This document shows positions 4,066-11,793 of a DNA stretch of 64,000 nt, piece by piece. The translations under genes and the position numbers were made by a program. How positions within the stretch are numbered: position 1 is the first letter of the stretch; each line of letters starts with the position of its first letter. The stretch is from Bacteroidota bacterium (GTDB taxonomy: Bacteria; Bacteroidota; Bacteroidia; Bacteroidales; F082), in the NCBI GenBank assembly GCA_020444415.1, contig JAHLLA010000007.1, positions 1 through 64,000 on the forward strand, read 5' to 3'. Below the pieces are notes generated by a model that did no database searches, had not been told where the DNA came from, and worked only from the letters and a program-made list of their open reading frames with translations.

Positions 4066-4157
4066 AGAGGGGACGTAACTGGTGTTTCACCTGGTCTTCA
4101 AAACCAGTAGCAGACGTATAAAACCGGCTGTGGCAGGTTCGATTCCTGCCCCCTCTG
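4066..4157 (+). tRNA. selC: tRNA-Sec (UCA), selenocysteine tRNA
   Basis: About 92 nt, long for a tRNA. The anticodon arm is CTGGT/ACCAG (4091-4095/4103-4107) around the loop CTTCAAA, with anticodon TCA at 4098-4100. A long extra arm follows (about 4108-4131), then a T arm GCAGG-TTCGATT-CCTGC (4133-4149). AGAGGGG (4066-4072) pairs with CCCCTCT (4150-4156). Adding C4065:G4157 gives the 8+5 acceptor/T helix typical of bacterial tRNA-Sec, so the ends are uncertain by one base. CCA is not encoded. It lies 30 bases upstream of selA, on the same strand. Confidence 0.93.
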
Positions 4158-4187
4158 CTCAATAAACTCCAGTAATTCTATTTCGCT

Positions 4188-5591
4188 TTGGACGAACTGA
4201 AAAAAATACCCGGTGTCGATACACTCCTTCATACTCAGGAGATCAGGGAACTGGTCGCTGAAACGAACATTGATCTTGTGAAGTATGTGATCAGAAACGT
4301 GTTGTCAGAATTGAAAGATGGTGTCAGAAAAGGCAAACAGCTAGCCAATCAACAACTGATTCTTCATAAGGTTATAACCGAAACAAAAATTTTGAGATCT
4401 AACTACCTTAAAAAAGTGATCAATGGAACGGGGATTGTCATTCATACCAATTTAGGACGAGCACCTTACAGCAGGGATTTACTAAATGAAGCGTTTGAAG
4501 TGCTGAATGGATACAACAACCTTGAATTTGACCTGGATACAGCCAGCCGGGGTTCACGGAATGCACATGCTTCTGATCTGCTGAAATACCTTTGTGGCGC
4601 CGAAGATGTGTTGGTGGTGAACAACAATGCAGCAGCGGTTGTGCTAATTCTCAGAGCTTTTGCAAAAGGCAGGGATGTGATTGTGTCGAGGGGAGAATTG
4701 ATCGAAATCGGTGGCTCATTCAGGTTGCCCGATATTATCGCATCGTCTGATTGCCACATGCGTGAAGTAGGCACAACCAATAAAACAAAAGTTACTGATT
4801 ACGAAAAAGCGATTTCTGAACACACGGGTGTGCTCTTTAAAGCGCATAAATCCAATTATTCCATCGAAGGATTTACGCAGGAAGTGAGCCTGGATGAATT
4901 GGTAGCGCTGGGTAAGAAAAATAAAATTCCTGTAGTGTATGATATGGGATCAGGACTTTTAAATGATTATTCTGTTAAGGAATTTAAACACGAACCCAAT
5001 GTAAAGCAAACCTTGAAATTGGGTGTCGATCTGGTTTGTTTCAGTGGCGATAAACTTCTGGGAGGTCCTCAGGCGGGCATTATTGCTGGTAAAAAGAAAC
5101 TGATTGAAAAATTAAAAAAAGAACCTTTATTGAGGGCGCTGCGGGTTGATAAACTTACATTGGCATTTTTGGAAACCAATAACCGGTATTTTTTGGATGA
5201 ATCCGTTTTGTATCAAAAGAATCTGTTCTATAAAATGCTAAATCAATCACCGCAGGAACTTGAAAATAAAGCCAATAGATGTAAAGCACTTTTAGCAAAA
5301 TGTAAAATTGATGCCGAAGTGATTCAAAACAAAGGGCAGTTTGGAGGAGGCGCTTTACCGGGAAAGGAAATTGACAGTTTTGCTGTTCAATTGAACCTTA
5401 AGAAAGATACAGCCAGGCAAAGATCAGAGTTGGCGAAAATGATCTATAAAGAACTGCTTCAGCAAAAAATACCCGTCCTCGGAATCTTAAGGAAAGGCAA
5501 TATCTATTTTGATATGCTCTGTATTACGGATGGGGAAATGGAATTGGTGACAGAAAGTATTGCTCAGGTTCATAAAAAATTGGCCGGATAA
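4188..5591 (+). CDS. selA: L-seryl-tRNA(Sec) selenium transferase SelA
   Basis: 467 residues, the usual SelA length. SelA is a PLP enzyme that converts Ser-tRNA(Sec) to Sec-tRNA(Sec) using selenophosphate. Visible family signs are the N-terminal LKKIPGVDTLL, the INGTGIVIHTNLGRAP stretch, and SGDKLLGGPQAG, whose Lys289 is the expected PLP Schiff-base lysine. The start is the TTG at 4188: an in-frame stop lies at 4173-4175 and no ATG lies between. The stop overlaps the selB start by one base (TAATG), indicating translational coupling. The order tRNA-Sec-selA-selB-yedF-selD makes the function secure. Confidence 0.97.
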   Translation: MDELKKIPGVDTLLHTQEIRELVAETNIDLVKYVIRNVLSELKDGVRKGKQLANQQLILHKVITETKILRSNYLKKVINGTGIVIHTNLGRAPYSRDLLNEAFEVLNGYNNLEFDLDTASRGSRNAHASDLLKYLCGAEDVLVVNNNAAAVVLILRAFAKGRDVIVSRGELIEIGGSFRLPDIIASSDCHMREVGTTNKTKVTDYEKAISEHTGVLFKAHKSNYSIEGFTQEVSLDELVALGKKNKIPVVYDMGSGLLNDYSVKEFKHEPNVKQTLKLGVDLVCFSGDKLLGGPQAGIIAGKKKLIEKLKKEPLLRALRVDKLTLAFLETNNRYFLDESVLYQKNLFYKMLNQSPQELENKANRCKALLAKCKIDAEVIQNKGQFGGGALPGKEIDSFAVQLNLKKDTARQRSELAKMIYKELLQQKIPVLGILRKGNIYFDMLCITDGEMELVTESIAQVHKKLAG

Positions 5592-7546
5592 TGCGTCATG
5601 TAATACTCGGTACGGCAGGACATATTGATCATGGCAAAACAGCACTGATCAAAGCACTTACTCAAATAGACTGCGACAGTCATAAAGAGGAAAAGGAGCG
5701 GGGGATCACCATCAACCTGGGCTTTGCTCATATGAATCTTCCTTCCGGTGAATCCGTTGGGATTGTTGATGTGCCGGGCCACAAGGATTTTATTAAAACG
5801 ATGGTCGCAGGCGCATTTGGAATTGATATTGTTTTGCTGGTTGTGGCGGGAGATAGTGGAATTATGCCGCAAACCAGGGAGCATTTCCGCATATTGGAAT
5901 TGCTCGGCGTTTCAACTGGCATCGTCGTCATTACGAAGAAAGATCTGGCAGATGAGGAAATGCTGGAATTAGTAGAACTTGAAATTGAAGAGCTCATTGA
6001 TGATAGTCCCTTTGAATCCGCTCCGGTTGTAAAGGTGTCTTCCATAACTGGCGAAGGTCTCGATGAACTGGTAAAAGTGATCTCTGAAACTGTGTTTCAG
6101 ATAAAGGAAAAAAGCAGCCGGGATATTTTCCGCATGTACATCGACCGGGTATTTAATGTGAAAGGTATTGGTTATGTGGTGACTGGGTCGGTTTTGGGTG
6201 GCCATCTTGAAACGGGGGCTAATTTATACTTGCTGCCGGGCAAAGGAAAGCAACTTAAAGCACGTGCCATGGAGCGGCATGGCTTGGCGGTTGATCGTGT
6301 CGAAAGCGGCGATCGTGCAGCCCTCAACCTGTCTGGATTTAAAATAGAAGATTATCAGAGAGGTATGGTGCTGACAGACAGGATTTTGGAAGAAACATCA
6401 ATGATTGATGCTACTTTCCGTTTGTTTGCTGATGAACAATTAGGTGTTTGGTCGAAAGTGATCTTTTATTCGGGCACATTTGAATCTGCTGCAAAAATGC
6501 ATGTGTTGAATAAAGATAGTTTACAAAAAGATGAAAGCGCAATTGTCCAGATACATCTTGAAAAACCGGTTGTACTCATGAATAAAGATAAATTTATCCT
6601 CAGAAATTCATCGAATGATTTGACGCTTGGCGGCGGTGTGATCATGGACATAAAACCGCTTCACCATCGCCGAAGAACGCCTAAATTGATACAGGCACTC
6701 ACAGATCTGGCAGAAGCTACTTTAAATAGCGACCAGCAATTCAAGATCATCAAAATTGAATTGGAAAAAGAAAAAAGACCTGTTTTTGCAGACGAATTGG
6801 CCGAATTGTTAAAATTGCATGCTGATGAATTATTGGACGAATGCACTGAAAATAATGACGGAACAGTGATCATCCAAAATATAGTTGGGAAAAACATCCT
6901 TATCAGCAGCGAACTGCAACATGAATATGAAACGACGATCATTTCATTGTTGCAACAGCACCACGAGGCCAATTTCCTCATTGATGAAGGGCTGGATGCA
7001 AATGAATTGATCGGTAAACTTGGCCTTAAGGAAATAGAATCGGCAAAAATATATCTTCCTGGTTTATTGGAATCAATGGAAAAAAGAGGACTTGTCAGAA
7101 AGGTTCGGAATACATGGTCATTAATGGATCATCAGGTGCATATTGACAAAAAAACACAACAGCAACTCGACTGGCTTGAAACTACTTTGTTAACTTATAA
7201 CAAGCAAACTCCGCTAAATAAAGAAATTGAGGCCGGGGCTTATGCACAAAAGATTAGCAAGGAACATTTGAAATTATTGCTGAAATATATGGTTCATGCT
7301 GGAAAAGTTCTTACTTCGGAAGGAGAATATATTCATGTAAAAATCGTTGAAGAAATAAAACGAAAACTCATCCCGGTGTTAATTGAAAAAGAGAGGGGGA
7401 TCAATGAAAAAGAATTCAGACTGCTATTCGACAGCACGAAGAACTTTGTAAAAACGATGATCCGGATACTTGTTGATGAAGGCCTGATCACCAAATCAGA
7501 GTTTTATATACATATTACAGAAAAAGGAAAAAACGATACTGCTTAA
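5591..7546 (+). CDS. selB: Selenocysteine-specific elongation factor SelB
   Basis: 651 residues. The N-terminal half is an EF-Tu-like GTPase with P-loop GTAGHIDHGKT (7-17), switch II DVPGHKDF (60-67) and specificity loop TKKD (115-118), followed by beta-barrel domains. The C-terminal third is rich in winged-helix sequence and matches the SelB region that binds the SECIS hairpin in mRNA. SelB carries Sec-tRNA(Sec) to the ribosome at UGA codons next to a SECIS. It overlaps selA and yedF by single bases (TAATG at both ends), so the operon is translationally coupled. Length and motifs are normal. Confidence 0.97.
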   Translation: MRHVILGTAGHIDHGKTALIKALTQIDCDSHKEEKERGITINLGFAHMNLPSGESVGIVDVPGHKDFIKTMVAGAFGIDIVLLVVAGDSGIMPQTREHFRILELLGVSTGIVVITKKDLADEEMLELVELEIEELIDDSPFESAPVVKVSSITGEGLDELVKVISETVFQIKEKSSRDIFRMYIDRVFNVKGIGYVVTGSVLGGHLETGANLYLLPGKGKQLKARAMERHGLAVDRVESGDRAALNLSGFKIEDYQRGMVLTDRILEETSMIDATFRLFADEQLGVWSKVIFYSGTFESAAKMHVLNKDSLQKDESAIVQIHLEKPVVLMNKDKFILRNSSNDLTLGGGVIMDIKPLHHRRRTPKLIQALTDLAEATLNSDQQFKIIKIELEKEKRPVFADELAELLKLHADELLDECTENNDGTVIIQNIVGKNILISSELQHEYETTIISLLQQHHEANFLIDEGLDANELIGKLGLKEIESAKIYLPGLLESMEKRGLVRKVRNTWSLMDHQVHIDKKTQQQLDWLETTLLTYNKQTPLNKEIEAGAYAQKISKEHLKLLLKYMVHAGKVLTSEGEYIHVKIVEEIKRKLIPVLIEKERGINEKEFRLLFDSTKNFVKTMIRILVDEGLITKSEFYIHITEKGKNDTA

Positions 7547-8154
7547 TGAAAGTAATTGACGTCAGAGGAAAGAAATGTCCTATGCCACTTGTGGAAACAA
7601 AAAAGGCATTGAAAGTGACTGACAAGAATGAGGCTATAAAGGTTATTCTTGACAGTGAAAATTCGGTAAAAAATGTCACGCGATATTTGGAGGACAACAA
7701 TATACATGTAAGCAAGCAACAATCGGGTGGAACCTTTGAATTGCTTTTTAAAAGAGCTGGTAGTGAACCGGTAATCGAAGAAGCGGAAAGCTATTGTACG
7801 TCTTCTGAGCAGACAAATGATAGCTTTATCATTGTTTTTGGAAAAGACAGGCTGGGAGAAGGTTCGGATGATCTTGGAAACATGCTGGTGGGCGGCATGT
7901 TAACCACTTTGGTAGAAACGGAGCGTACACCTGATAAAATTATTTTTATAAACTCGGGAATCAACCTGGTAATAAACGATTCTCCGGTATTGTCTTTGTT
8001 AAAAAAGCTGGAAGATCGGGGCTGTGAATTGCTATCGTGCGGCACATGTCTGGATTATTTTGATAAAATGGAGAACCTCGAAGTAGGTCGTGTTTCCAAT
8101 ATGCTTGAAATCCTCGAAGCAATGACATCATATTCAAAAGTGATAAATATATAA
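7546..8154 (+). CDS. yedF: Selenium metabolism protein YedF (TusA-like + DsrE-like)
   Basis: 202 residues. The N-terminal domain (1-75) is TusA/SirA-like, with the signature DVRGKKCPMPLVETKKAL and Cys11 in the CPMP motif. The C-terminal half resembles a DsrE/DsrF-like fold (FIIVFGKDRLGEGSDDLG, then a LLSCGTCLDYF segment with two cysteines). This two-domain protein is a known companion of sel operons, where it is thought to handle reactive selenium or sulfur; its biochemical role is not settled. It starts at the ATG overlapping the selB stop and ends six bases before selD. Confidence 0.93.
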   Translation: MKVIDVRGKKCPMPLVETKKALKVTDKNEAIKVILDSENSVKNVTRYLEDNNIHVSKQQSGGTFELLFKRAGSEPVIEEAESYCTSSEQTNDSFIIVFGKDRLGEGSDDLGNMLVGGMLTTLVETERTPDKIIFINSGINLVINDSPVLSLLKKLEDRGCELLSCGTCLDYFDKMENLEVGRVSNMLEILEAMTSYSKVINI

Positions 8155-8160
8155 ATAAAT

Positions 8161-9195
8161 ATGGATATTGATCTTTTAAAGCTCATTGATCAGGGTGGTT
8201 GTTCGGCAAAGCTGTCTGCAACCGAACTGAATAAAGCCCTGGCCGATTTACCTAAAATAACCCATAAAAACCTGCTGGTTAATATTGACACCCATGATGA
8301 TGCTGGTGTTTATAAAATAAGGGATGACTATGCGCTGGTTCAAACGACAGATTTCTTTCCGCCGGTCTGTTCCGGTGCGTACGATTATGGTCAGGTAGCA
8401 GCCGCCAACGCCCTCAGCGATGTGTATGCCATGGGAGGTCAGGTGCTGACCGCTCTGAATATTCTCATGTTTCCCCCAGATCTACCCATGTCTATACTTA
8501 AAGACATCATCAGGGGTGGACAGGAAAAGGTAGTTGAAGCCGGCGGTTTGATTGTGGGCGGGCATACCATAACCAACGACATTCCTGTGTATGGCATGGC
8601 TGTGACAGGATGGGTGCATCCTGACAAGATCATTACCAATGACCAGGCCCGACCCGGAGATATACTTATTCTTACAAAACCATTGGGAACCGGCGTGATC
8701 ATCTCTGCTAAAAAGAACAATTCGGTAGATGAAGATACCTACAGAGCAGCCATTGATTATATGAAACAGCTCAATATGCAAGCCGCAGCCATTATGGCAA
8801 AATATGAGATTAGATCGGCAACGGACATTACAGGTTTCGGATTATTGGGGCATGCATTGAAAATGGCTCTGGGAAGTAAGGTCTCCATTAAAATTAACGC
8901 TACGGATGTACCTTCAATTCAAAATGTGATGGAATTGATAGAAACCGGGTTTATCCCGGGAGCAGGGTTCAGAAACCTTGAATTTGTGGAAGATCAATGC
9001 GATTTCAGTAATCAGGTGCCATATAATACCAAAATGCTGCTTGCTGATGCGCAAACTTCCGGTGGTATTTTAATGGCCGTAGCCCGTGAAAAAGCTGCAT
9101 CAATCCTTGACGAACTTAAAGATGTGGGATATGCATCAACGGCTGTTGTAGGTGAAGTTATGCAGCAAGAAAAGAAACCGGTCATCATCGTTTAG
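8161..9195 (+). CDS. selD: Selenophosphate synthase SelD
   Basis: 344 residues, the normal SelD length. It makes selenophosphate from selenide and ATP, the selenium donor for SelA. The N-terminal glycine-rich loop GGCSAKLS has Cys14 at the catalytic position (Sec or Cys in the family) and Lys17 three residues later, so this copy is a cysteine form. The AIRS-type ATP-binding and C-terminal domains follow (TTDFFPPVC, DITGFGLLGHA and DAQTSGGIL are all typical). It is the last gene of the sel operon. A hairpin at 9231-9257 separates it from the convergent selenoprotein gene. Confidence 0.97.
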   Translation: MDIDLLKLIDQGGCSAKLSATELNKALADLPKITHKNLLVNIDTHDDAGVYKIRDDYALVQTTDFFPPVCSGAYDYGQVAAANALSDVYAMGGQVLTALNILMFPPDLPMSILKDIIRGGQEKVVEAGGLIVGGHTITNDIPVYGMAVTGWVHPDKIITNDQARPGDILILTKPLGTGVIISAKKNNSVDEDTYRAAIDYMKQLNMQAAAIMAKYEIRSATDITGFGLLGHALKMALGSKVSIKINATDVPSIQNVMELIETGFIPGAGFRNLEFVEDQCDFSNQVPYNTKMLLADAQTSGGILMAVAREKAASILDELKDVGYASTAVVGEVMQQEKKPVIIV

Positions 9196-9230
9196 CAGAA
9201 CTGCTGATAGAAATCCCCATTCATAAAAAA

Positions 9231-9257
9231 CCCCTCAACAATTAATTTGCTGAGGGG
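9231..9257 (-). terminator. Terminator of the selenoprotein gene
   Basis: CCCCTCA/TGAGGGG forms a 7-bp GC-rich stem, extended by three more pairs after one mismatch. On the minus strand it is followed by six T (9225-9230), so it ends the selenoprotein transcript. On the plus strand no T run follows, so termination of the sel operon here is less certain. Confidence 0.75.
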
Positions 9258-9277
9258 CATGAACTTACTAAAGACTT

Positions 9278-10522
9278 TTATTTAATGATCAGTCGTTTTG
9301 AAATAATATTTTCTTCGGTTTCAATTTTGATGGAATACACACCTGCTGGATAAGATGTCGTATTAAACTGATAATCTTTACCGCTTAATTGTACTTTTTC
9401 AATCAATTGCCCGGTATAACTATAAATGCTTATAATAATCATATCAGTTTTTGATGCAATGTGAACCACATCACTGGCAGGATTCGGATATACCTTTACT
9501 GCTGACTCTTTCACTTCATCAATACCAGTACAGGCATCCACCATAAGTGTTTCTTCAGCCGTATTATAGCAGCCATCATCAGATGTGTAAGCATACGTGA
9601 TAAGATGCGCACCGATACCGGCAGCTTCGGGATCAAACATGCCATCCGTTACACCAGGTCCACTGTATTCACCACCTTCAGGTAGTCCTCCCGTGAGTTC
9701 ATATGGTGCCCAAAAAACACAGGCAACATCAAGGGGCTGCATCGTTACATCAGGCACTTCGTAGATGCTCATATAATCTTCAACCATAAATGTAGCGCCA
9801 TCATCACCATTCACAGTCAGCGTTACATCCCAGCTACCAACCGTATTGTAGGTAACAGTAGGGTTTTGCTCTGTGGAAGTTTCCGGATCGCCACCTTCAA
9901 ATGTCCATTCCCATGATGTTACATCACCTGTTGACATATCAGAGAATTGTACGGTACCTGAACCACAGAGTTCAGTTACATCGGAAGAAAAGTTGGCAGT
10001 TAAGCCACCACACGCTGTCTGCTCTAATCCTTGACCTTCAAAGGCATTAATAAATGTTTGGGTATTTGGGACTGGCCAAATATCATTAAGGACAATGTCG
10101 TGATTTGGTGCAATTAAAATGTAAGTGGGGTATGCGGTTATTCCATAAGTGTTATTAATCGCGGCACCACCTCCTTCTATAGCACTGATGGTTGGAAATT
10201 CAATGCCATGGTTCTCATTGTACTGAATACAAGTAGCATTATTATCTTGAGTTGAAATGCTAATAACAAAAAGGTCTGCTTCATTACAGCCAAATAAATT
10301 GTAAGCCTCGTTTAAATAAGGAACGGTGCTTGTGCATGATGGTCATGTGGTGTAAAAGAAGTCAATACAAACGTACTGGCCTCCATCCAAAATTTCGAAA
10401 AGGTTATACTCAATCCCATCGATACCGGTAGCAGTGAAATCAACAGCCACTGTAAGTGGAGTTTGAGCAATACTGAATGTTGTAGCTAACAACAATCCAA
10501 TGAAAAGTGTAAATTTCTTCAT
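9278..10522 (-). CDS. Predicted secreted selenoprotein: thioredoxin-like (UxxC) + PKD + T9SS sorting domain
   Basis: Read from the ATG at 10522, the frame runs 59 codons to a TGA (10343-10345) and then continues, without any other stop, to the TAA at 9278: 414 residues with Sec60. Residues 1-19 are a signal peptide. Residues 22-165 are a TlpA/peroxiredoxin-like thioredoxin fold whose active site reads FYTTUPSCTS, so Sec replaces the first cysteine of CxxC and Cys63 is the partner. Pro132 in ITAYPTY is the cis-proline. A PKD domain covers about 175-255 and a T9SS type A sorting domain (VKVYPNPASD) about 340-414. It is convergent with the sel operon and has its own consensus promoter. A plain ORF caller would report only the last 219 residues. 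Its substrate is unknown; an extracellular thiol/selenol oxidoreductase or peroxidase role is inferred. Confidence 0.88.
10303..10331 (-). promoter_or_regulatory. Candidate bacterial SECIS hairpin
   Basis: Starting 11 nt after the UGA, the mRNA can fold AAGC/GCUU, one C-G pair between two single-base bulges, and CGUU/AACG around the 9-nt loop CCUUAUUUA. Loop distance (about 22-30 nt after UGA) fits known bacterial SECIS geometry. The loop lacks the guanine usually seen at its start, so this may not be the exact element recognised by SelB. Confidence 0.45.
10343..10345 (-). other. In-frame UGA predicted to encode selenocysteine (residue 60)
   Basis: The codon sequence around it is TAC ACC ACA TGA CCA TCA TGC. 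The TGA occupies the position of the first redox cysteine of a thioredoxin CxxC, and coding continues in the same frame with normal protein sequence for 354 more residues. Complete Sec machinery lies directly downstream on the other strand. Confidence 0.88.
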
Positions 10523-10565
10523 ATTGCTTTTATTAATGAATAAAAATTTGATGCTGGGAACAGTA

Positions 10566-10595
10566 CAAATGTAAAATAAAAATTTTTGAATTCAA
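10566..10595 (-). promoter_or_regulatory. Consensus Bacteroidota promoter of the selenoprotein gene
   Basis: On the minus strand: TTG (10593-10595), a spacer of exactly 19 bp, then TACATTTG (10566-10573), a full match to the TTG-19-TAnnTTTG pattern. The predicted start site is near 10559, giving a leader of about 37 nt. An intact promoter argues against a dead gene. Confidence 0.75.
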
Positions 10596-10710
10596 ATATG
10601 AACATATGTAAAGTTATTATTAATATAAATTCTAAATCTATTATGCAAGTGCATTATATGCTGTTAATATGCGCTGATATTTTGTATTTTTCCATTTTTA
10701 AAATCATTTG

Positions 10711-11793
10711 ATGTCTGTACCTCTTGATTTCATATTCTCGCAGTTCCACCCGAACTTGAAACTTATATCAATTGAAGCATTTGGAAATGGGCATATTCAT
10801 GTTACTTATAAATTATCTACCCAAAATGAAGCATCTTTTATTCTGCAAAAAATAAACCGGGTGGTTTTTTCAAATATTCCTGTATTGCAGAGCAATATTG
10901 AAAAAGTGATCGATCATATGAATGGCCAGCATCCCAATGTTATTAACATGCCGAAGATTTTTAAAACCAAAGCAGGAAAATCATATTTCTTGGATAATGA
11001 TGGTGATTATTGGCGGTTATTTAGTTTTATTCCCGGAAGTATAACATATGACAGGGTTTTGGATGCTGGTTTGGCATATGAGGCAGGGAAAGCTTATGGT
11101 ACATTTCAAGAAATGTTCAGGGATTTTTCGCCGACATTATTACATGAAACCCTTCCTAATTTCCATCATATTGATAACCGACTTCAACTATTCGAAATAA
11201 GTGTTTTAAACAATCCGATGAACAGGGTAGAGGAAGTGAAAAATGAAATTGAATTCGTGAGGTCAAGAGTGAGGAGGATGCAACGAATAATGTTAAAAGG
11301 ACAAGCAGGTCTAATTCCACTTCGTATCACGCATAACGACACAAAAATTAATAATGTATTGTTTGATAAAGACGACAAGGCCATATGTGTGATTGACCTG
11401 GATACGGTGATGCCTGGTTACATCCATTACGACTTTGGTGATGCCATCCGCACTGGAGCAGCTTCTGCCGATGAAGACGAAATCGATTTAAGTAAAATGT
11501 GCATCGACCTGAAATTATTTGAAGCTTATTCCCGGGGATTCCTGGAACAGACCATTGACTTTGTCAGTCAGGAAGAAATGGATGAATTATATTTTGCACC
11601 TCAATTACTTACTTTTATTATCGCATTGCGCTTTCTAACGGATTATTTAAATGGTGATGCATATTTCAAAGTGGATCATGAGAATCATAATTTGCAGCGC
11701 TGGTATGCTCAAAAGCAATTGCTGTTAAGCATGGTAGCACATGAAGTAGAAATGCAGCAAATTATTCAACAAATTGATAAACAATTAAAATAA
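10711..11793 (+). CDS. Aminoglycoside phosphotransferase-fold sugar kinase, N-acetylhexosamine 1-kinase (NahK)-like
   Basis: 360 residues from the ATG at 10711 (a TTG directly before it is less likely). The kinase-like fold is shown by the catalytic loop ITHNDTKINNVLFD (His208, Asp210, Asn215) and the metal-binding VIDLDTV (Asp229, Asp231) followed by HYDFGDAIR. This pattern and length match the NahK/LnpB group, which phosphorylates GlcNAc or GalNAc at C1, though other sugar or choline kinases share the fold. The gene ends four bases before a GH109-type alpha-N-acetylgalactosaminidase on the same strand, so phosphorylation of released GalNAc is a sensible inference. No signal peptide, hence cytoplasmic. 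Confidence 0.75.
   Translation: MSVPLDFIFSQFHPNLKLISIEAFGNGHIHVTYKLSTQNEASFILQKINRVVFSNIPVLQSNIEKVIDHMNGQHPNVINMPKIFKTKAGKSYFLDNDGDYWRLFSFIPGSITYDRVLDAGLAYEAGKAYGTFQEMFRDFSPTLLHETLPNFHHIDNRLQLFEISVLNNPMNRVEEVKNEIEFVRSRVRRMQRIMLKGQAGLIPLRITHNDTKINNVLFDKDDKAICVIDLDTVMPGYIHYDFGDAIRTGAASADEDEIDLSKMCIDLKLFEAYSRGFLEQTIDFVSQEEMDELYFAPQLLTFIIALRFLTDYLNGDAYFKVDHENHNLQRWYAQKQLLLSMVAHEVEMQQIIQQIDKQLK

Follow-up and report, generated by a model that had tools for sequence, protein, structure and literature searches.

We identified a gene for a predicted selenoprotein beside its own selenocysteine (Sec) decoding operon in a 64,000-nucleotide stretch of a Bacteroidales genome (contig JAHLLA010000007.1; hereafter the window). 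The gene product is very probably an exported, Sec-containing thiol-disulfide oxidoreductase of the ResA/TlpA-like type, with UGA codon 60 decoded by the neighbouring sel gene set via a hairpin in the mRNA. Our confidence that it is a selenoprotein, exported or not, is still greater. The frame, the Sec/Cys column in homologues, the co-occurrence with the Sec machinery, the purifying selection, the predicted fold, the sorting domain and two sortase genes were all computed here.

The gene lies on the minus strand (9278..10522); it begins with ATG, ends with TAA and comprises 414 codons, a single one of which is an in-frame UGA (translation with TGA read as U; homologues are similarly built). The original prediction had described a minus-strand frame from ATG 10522 to TAA 9278 with exactly one TGA (10343–10345), at the first position of a thioredoxin CxxC motif. 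The translation agrees on both counts. U60 is the sole recoded codon in the 414-residue product, in the context FFYTTUPSCTS. This codon (10343..10345, minus strand) is assigned as predicted selenocysteine from the Cys and TGA codons of homologues and is the first residue of a UxxC motif (UPSC, residues 60–63). A six-frame scan of the whole window yielded 11 TGA codons that are preceded by 40 or more open codons and followed by 60 or more, and a UxxC or CxxU motif is present at only one, codon 60 of the selenoprotein gene. A single UGA that is apparently read through might also reflect a variant genetic code with UGA as a general sense codon. This is exceedingly improbable in view of the solitary UxxC/CxxU case in the scan and of the tRNA complement, since tRNA-Sec is the only tRNA with a UCA anticodon that ARAGORN found in the window. 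In addition, TGA still serves as a stop, closing two of the 14 gene frames that we checked in the window.

Listing of open reading frames with translation table 11 (minimum 80 aa) gives only the ORF 9278–9937 (219 aa) for this gene, exactly the truncation to residues 196–414 that had been foreseen for any stop-aware annotation. The gene is thus a cautionary case, as such annotation reduces genes of this kind to a C-terminal fragment. In a comparison with L047, a homologue of 73% identity, the 59 codons upstream of the TGA have a dN/dS of 0.14, the 111 codons that follow it 0.11 and the remaining 243 codons 0.12. The ratio is low on both sides, and coding constraint therefore continues across the TGA.

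The gene had also been credited with a terminator and a consensus promoter. The first part of this claim holds: an intrinsic-terminator-like site with a 12-pair stem and a T run (9230..9258, minus strand) is located between the selenoprotein gene and the sel operon, and region 9100–10750 contains four terminator-like sites compared to 0.9 in shuffles. The second part is weaker than claimed. A promoter-like site of the Bacteroidota type, TTTG-N19-TACATTTG, is found 44 nt upstream of the ATG (10566..10596, minus strand) and matches what we take to be the Bacteroidota promoter consensus. The pattern occurs six times in the window with 4.4 occurrences expected, no more rarely than by chance, and we rejected a strong reading of this site.

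The Sec-decoding operon that was predicted to adjoin the gene could be identified in full. It runs on the plus strand from 4066 to 9195, convergent with the selenoprotein gene, in the order tRNA-Sec, selA, selB, yedF, selD. The tRNA-Sec has the anticodon UCA (4066..4158; ARAGORN, and Rfam RF01852 with 60.6 bits). It is followed by selA (4188..5591; TIGR00474, 535.3 bits, cut-off 267.9), selB for the Sec-specific elongation factor (5591..7546; TIGR00475, 305.5 bits, cut-off 242.25), yedF for a TusA/DsrE-like protein of selenium metabolism (7546..8154; TIGR03527, 194.9 bits, cut-off 110) and selD for selenophosphate synthetase (8161..9195; TIGR00476, 368.8 bits, cut-off 125). One genome, and indeed the window alone, thus holds tRNA-Sec, SelA, SelB and SelD. 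The winged-helix part at the C-terminus of SelB matches the SelB-wing_2 model with 17.5 bits, below the cut-off of 22.3. This low score is compatible with a diverged recognition module, and SelB with its divergent C-terminus may be a candidate reader of an atypical SECIS element.

To examine the catalytic position in homologues we kept the best 80 of 101 relatives from a wider scan, which employed peptide patterns that exclude this position. The codon aligned to U60 is TGA in 12 of the 80 loci and TGC or TGT in the other 68. Homologues with neither Cys nor Sec at this position, which the original prediction had named as evidence against Sec, do not occur among these 80 loci. A smaller set comprised 41 genomes (the window's own and 40 relatives) and matches to the thioredoxin domain at E 1e-10 or better. 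It contained 33 domain matches in 25 genomes, with TGA in five of them (one each in G000, G002 and G018, two in G010). In the 30 matches with loci, the column at U60 is Cys in 25, TGA in four and Ala in one; this count omits three of the 33 matches, namely G010:C222 (TGA, read separately) and two without a stop. The two sets overlap, as L047 is a contig of G002 and L056 a contig of G018. According to their record titles, the 12 TGA loci belong to uncultured Bacteroidales or Bacteroidetes, one Marinilabiliales, one Marinifilum sp. and one Chlorobiota.

A point change from TGC or TGT, one base away from TGA, could have produced the same codon in a dead or misread gene. A pseudogene or sequencing error is nevertheless very hard to reconcile with the same-codon TGA in 12 of 80 loci, and we give it hardly any weight. 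Beyond the same-genus assembly, TGA is found at the homologous codon in 11 further assemblies, and because of this recurrence a sequencing error is very unlikely. All 12 TGA frames remain open for about 190 or more codons beyond the TGA up to a TAA or TAG and contain no second TGA. The dN/dS of 0.11–0.12 downstream of the TGA and the strong tie of TGA to the Sec machinery (see below) likewise speak against a dead gene. The translation, the homologue frames and the dN/dS values of 0.11–0.14 all place the UGA between coding flanks. One homologue, L125 in G090, has TGA without detected Sec machinery, and here an isolated nonsense mutation or an incomplete assembly is possible.

The UGA might instead be a regulated stop that separates a short secreted peptide from a C-terminal protein, or a codon read through with an ordinary amino acid. 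The table 11 ORF of 219 codons, which begins at residue 196, would fit the former. We consider either version improbable, if slightly less so than a dead gene: the residue in all 68 non-TGA loci is Cys, the known exchange partner of Sec; TGA co-occurs with tRNA-Sec and selA; and a split at this codon would cut through the thioredoxin domain (residues 26–145). Taken together, the Sec/Cys column, the tie to the Sec machinery and the purifying selection past the TGA support the interpretation as a predicted selenoprotein.

Two further observations were made in the homologue sets. L016 (G027:C41) carries Ala and Gly in the two active-site Cys columns and is a probable non-redox member. In 15 of the 80 loci (L059, L061, L065, L066, L068, L070, L071, L073, L074, L080, L082, L083, L085, L089 and L099) a second, weaker domain match is located just downstream, with an Asp codon (GAC or GAT) aligned to the catalytic Cys. 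Several of these 15 loci carry ruminant-gut titles.

The distribution of the Sec machinery follows that of the TGA codon. Using the Rfam model together with ARAGORN, we found a tRNA-Sec (UCA) in 11 of the 12 TGA genomes compared to one of the 68 Cys genomes (G101, locus L105), and selA adjoins the tRNA in each of these 12 cases. Fisher's test of TGA against tRNA-Sec gives p = 1.4e-11, a value that takes no account of relatedness or of the candidates being scored in part. The ARAGORN check of 24 near-cut-off loci separated 12 tRNA-Sec from 12 tRNA-Ser genes. In most genomes the searches scored a share of the initial candidates, and absence of tRNA-Sec in the Cys genomes therefore means "not found". 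In the 41-genome set, SelB scored above the cut-off in three genomes (G000, G002 and G018), and G010 has part of a SelB (216.4 bits) where a contig ends, with selA beside it. The UGA homologues are confined to these four genomes with a full (three) or contig-edge (one) SelB; the other 37 genomes have none. selA is present in 13 of the 14 UGA-bearing genomes examined. For the TGA copy in G090 (L125) we found neither tRNA-Sec nor selA, which may reflect an incomplete assembly or a lost Sec system. G101 possesses tRNA-Sec and selA together with a Cys copy of the gene.

The Sec gene adjoins sel genes in the window and, among the 12 TGA loci, in L047, L056 and L062; L062 has the same gene order and convergent layout as the window. 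In the remaining nine no sel gene was present within the locus DNA examined, which is short for several of them.

Of 395 genomes drawn evenly from the phylum, a single one, the window's own, has a selA at E 1e-60 or better. The rarity of Sec decoding in the phylum, like the type IX tail, the PKD domain and the hairpin after the UGA described below, had not been part of the original prediction. Passages of two surveys, from 2006 (PMC1794560) and 2015 (PMC5322559), describe Bacteroidetes as lacking Sec decoding, and the Bacteroidetes passage of a 2016 survey reports an orphan SelD (PMC5029168). The locus and its relatives indicate that Sec decoding exists in Bacteroidetes and serves at least one conserved selenoprotein family.

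For an idea about the history of the Sec/Cys position we calculated a quick tree from 83 domain sequences (15 UGA, 68 Cys) with the catalytic residue masked; some of its branches are long. Eleven UGA rows cluster with a support of 84, ten of them on a branch with a support of 96. L017 together with L125, as well as L114 and L167, are placed apart from this main group. The Sec/Cys label requires four changes on the tree, at least three of them forced by well-supported branches, compared to 13.9 changes in shuffles. A single origin of all UGA copies is disfavoured by these changes on the quick tree, and an exchange between Sec and Cys therefore probably happened more than once.

Additional UGA proteins with a thioredoxin fold came to light alongside this family. 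Among the matches listed there are at least two such proteins in Sec-decoding relatives: L191 (G089:C116, match 2477–2830), a TlpA-like protein with the motif ATWUGPC, and L192 (G044:C225, match 8623–8985), a thioredoxin-like protein with the motif STTUGTC and a sorting-tail-like end. L167 (G010:C222:5994-6404, minus strand) is the second UGA thioredoxin-like protein of G010. It is 31% identical and branches far away, and a long hairpin of −15.1 kcal/mol is predicted after its UGA.

Downstream of the UGA in the window we observed a SECIS-like hairpin of two helices (10303..10331, minus strand). It spans bases 14–42, with the U of the UGA as base 0, and is built up from the pairs 14–17/39–42 and 20–23/33–36 and a 9-nt apical loop. 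This hairpin was first spotted by eye in the same sequences and then tested with controls. Seven or eight of the eight pairs can form in nine of the 15 UGA sequences but in none of the 68 Cys homologues, three of which reach six. The nine UGA sequences that retain the hairpin are close relatives. In L062, L114, L125, L017 and L167 its pairs are not kept, and L049 preserves the layout if a slip of one base is allowed. When ten UGA sequences are aligned without gaps, 88.8% of the cells pair and three pairs change on both sides, compared to 17.5–42.5% of the cells when the hairpin is slid by one to three bases. None of 500 shuffles reached the observed percentage of paired cells, the number of double-change cells or the covariation score; the other two of the five covariation measures, pairs with double changes (reached in 23 of 500 shuffles) and pair types (128 of 500), were unexceptional.

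Since the hairpin was derived from these same sequences, we also performed a structure-free test, in which the folding energy of a 48-base stretch, beginning at base 3 counted from the start of the UGA, was compared with 300 synonymous recodings. The mean z-score was −1.89 for the 15 UGA sequences and −0.47 for the 68 Cys sequences, with p = 0.0009 by the Mann-Whitney test if relatedness is disregarded. Further along, at offsets of 54 and 102, UGA and Cys sequences did not differ (p = 0.63 and 0.17). Taken alone, the hairpin of the window is not significantly stable (z = −0.96), and that of L048 is not stable either (z = 0.44).

A canonical bacterial SECIS element has a G as the first or second base of its apical loop, at a distance of 16–37 nt from the UGA. 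Our search with this rule as coded gave hits in two of 13 UGA sequences, the window not among them, versus 26 of 68 Cys sequences. With no enrichment in UGA sequences and no loop G in the hairpin of the window, we rejected a canonical element. As judged from pairing and folding, the hairpin is likely the SECIS of the main UGA clade, of an atypical kind. Together with the divergent SelB it offers a testable case of change in a SelB–SECIS pair.

The predicted protein starts with a signal-peptide-like N-terminus (residues 1–19; 10466..10522, minus strand), recognized by eye as MKKFTLFIGLLLATTFSIA-Q, and the Gln20 that follows it is nearly invariant in the alignments. A thioredoxin-fold domain comprises residues 26–145 (10088..10447, minus strand; Pfam AhpC-TSA with 41.6 bits, also Redoxin and Thioredoxin_8). 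Further domains are a PKD domain (residues 190–244; 9791..9955, minus strand; PF18911, 42.8 bits) and a C-terminal sorting domain for type IX secretion (residues 344–413; 9284..9493, minus strand). Two models of the latter score above their cut-offs, PF18962 with 49.7 bits against 27 and TIGR04183 with 41.4 bits against 23.

We modeled residues 1–171 with AlphaFold2 (Sec replaced by Cys, 30 sequences) and obtained a mean pLDDT of 92.4. In the model, residue 60 is located directly before a helix (residues 61–76) and Pro132 directly before a β-strand (residues 133–137). The original prediction had placed a cis-proline 72 residues after the UGA. Pro132 (10127..10129, minus strand) is found at this place and is the putative cis-proline opposite the active site; no other residue occurs there in alignments of 15 and of 30 sequences. 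The protein thus combines the fold, the UxxC/CxxC motif at the start of helix 1 and the opposing proline of ResA/TlpA-like thiol-disulfide oxidoreductases. With the NCBIfam model for ResA itself (NF002854) it reaches 46.6 bits at a cut-off of 170, which places it outside that family. It is a predicted selenoprotein that would work like ResA and is not to be filed as ResA.

From the PKD domain and the type IX tail it follows that the protein is probably exported. Retention in the periplasm, with the C-terminal domain not used for type IX export, has some precedent in the homologue L048, which lacks a sorting domain; it strikes us as unlikely. Apart from the two sorting-domain models above cut-off, the genome contains two PorU-type sortases (NF033707, 1316.2 and 1262.3 bits, cut-off 420) and many further matches to the sorting-tail region, all of which argue against retention. 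When nine other UGA proteins were tested, the AhpC-TSA domain was found in all nine and the sorting tail was kept in eight, L048 being the exception. With its sorting domain, its signal-peptide-like N-terminus and sortases encoded in the same genome, the protein is a candidate T9SS type A cargo.

Based on the sequence analysis and the model we propose the following route for the exported selenoprotein. UGA60 of the mRNA would be translated as Sec by the neighbouring tRNA-Sec, SelA, SelB and SelD, with the hairpin 14–42 nt past the UGA guiding the insertion. The signal peptide would then take the precursor across the inner membrane, and the C-terminal sorting domain would direct it to the type IX system for transport across the outer membrane. 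Outside the cytoplasm, Sec60 would act as the attacking and Cys63 as the resolving residue to form or cleave disulfides or similar bonds in other molecules. We infer this redox role, thiol-disulfide exchange outside the cytoplasm and probably at the cell surface, from the fold and the motif, and it is the best-supported function for the protein. If the protein is indeed exported via the type IX system, selenium chemistry would take place outside the cell in environmental Bacteroidota.

We also asked which protein the Sec operon usually serves. Formate dehydrogenase with Sec was rejected as its usual partner: matches to PF00384 are present in 13 of 15 genomes, with no TGA in the matched stretches (one match contains a TAA). 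In the window's own genome one of 21 AhpC-TSA matches has a TGA, and this is the selenoprotein gene itself. On the strength of these two results, no TGA in the molybdopterin-oxidoreductase matches of 15 genomes and one among the 21 AhpC-TSA matches, exported thioredoxin-like proteins could be the main purpose of the Sec system. A broader picture, which we put forward tentatively and with somewhat less than even confidence, is that one lineage within the Bacteroidota, the Bacteroidales with their relatives, has its own type of SECIS with a G-less loop, read by a SelB with a divergent wing, and Sec-containing redox proteins exported by the type IX system. These would constitute the first class of selenoproteins that leave the cell by this system, and the Sec system would be retained mainly for them rather than for formate dehydrogenase.

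The best solved relative by sequence is a ResA-type structure (PDB-entry 4nmu, 74.8 bits). By fold, thiol-disulfide oxidoreductases from Bacteroides and Bacillus are closest, with ResA among the best. The layout of the active site is common to the selenoprotein and to ResA/TlpA (PDB-entries 4nmu and 1st9), which we take to have a CxxC motif and no type IX tail; in the selenoprotein, however, Sec substitutes the first Cys. The Cys homologues from Bacteroidota (e.g. L012 of G016) share the N-terminal domain, and by eye most of the printed frames have a sorting-tail-like C-terminus. They differ from the selenoprotein in carrying Cys instead of Sec, and tRNA-Sec was found in one of their 68 genomes.

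Selenoproteins with a UxxC motif have been described in passages of three reports, among them a Prx-like thiol:disulfide oxidoreductase (PF00578) and a thiol-disulfide isomerase-like protein (Thioredoxin_8) (PMC13188914, PMC9312934, PMC1088965). As far as these passages go, the protein from the window resembles them in its thioredoxin fold of the AhpC-TSA/Thioredoxin_8 type and in having Sec as the first residue of UxxC. It differs from them in the fusion to a PKD and a type IX sorting domain, in its Bacteroidota host and in the atypical hairpin. A fusion of a UxxC selenoprotein to these two domains does not appear in the passages of the three reports, and our searches of the open-access literature brought up no selenoprotein that carries a type IX sorting tail. 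The thioredoxin-fold UxxC selenoprotein as such is already known.
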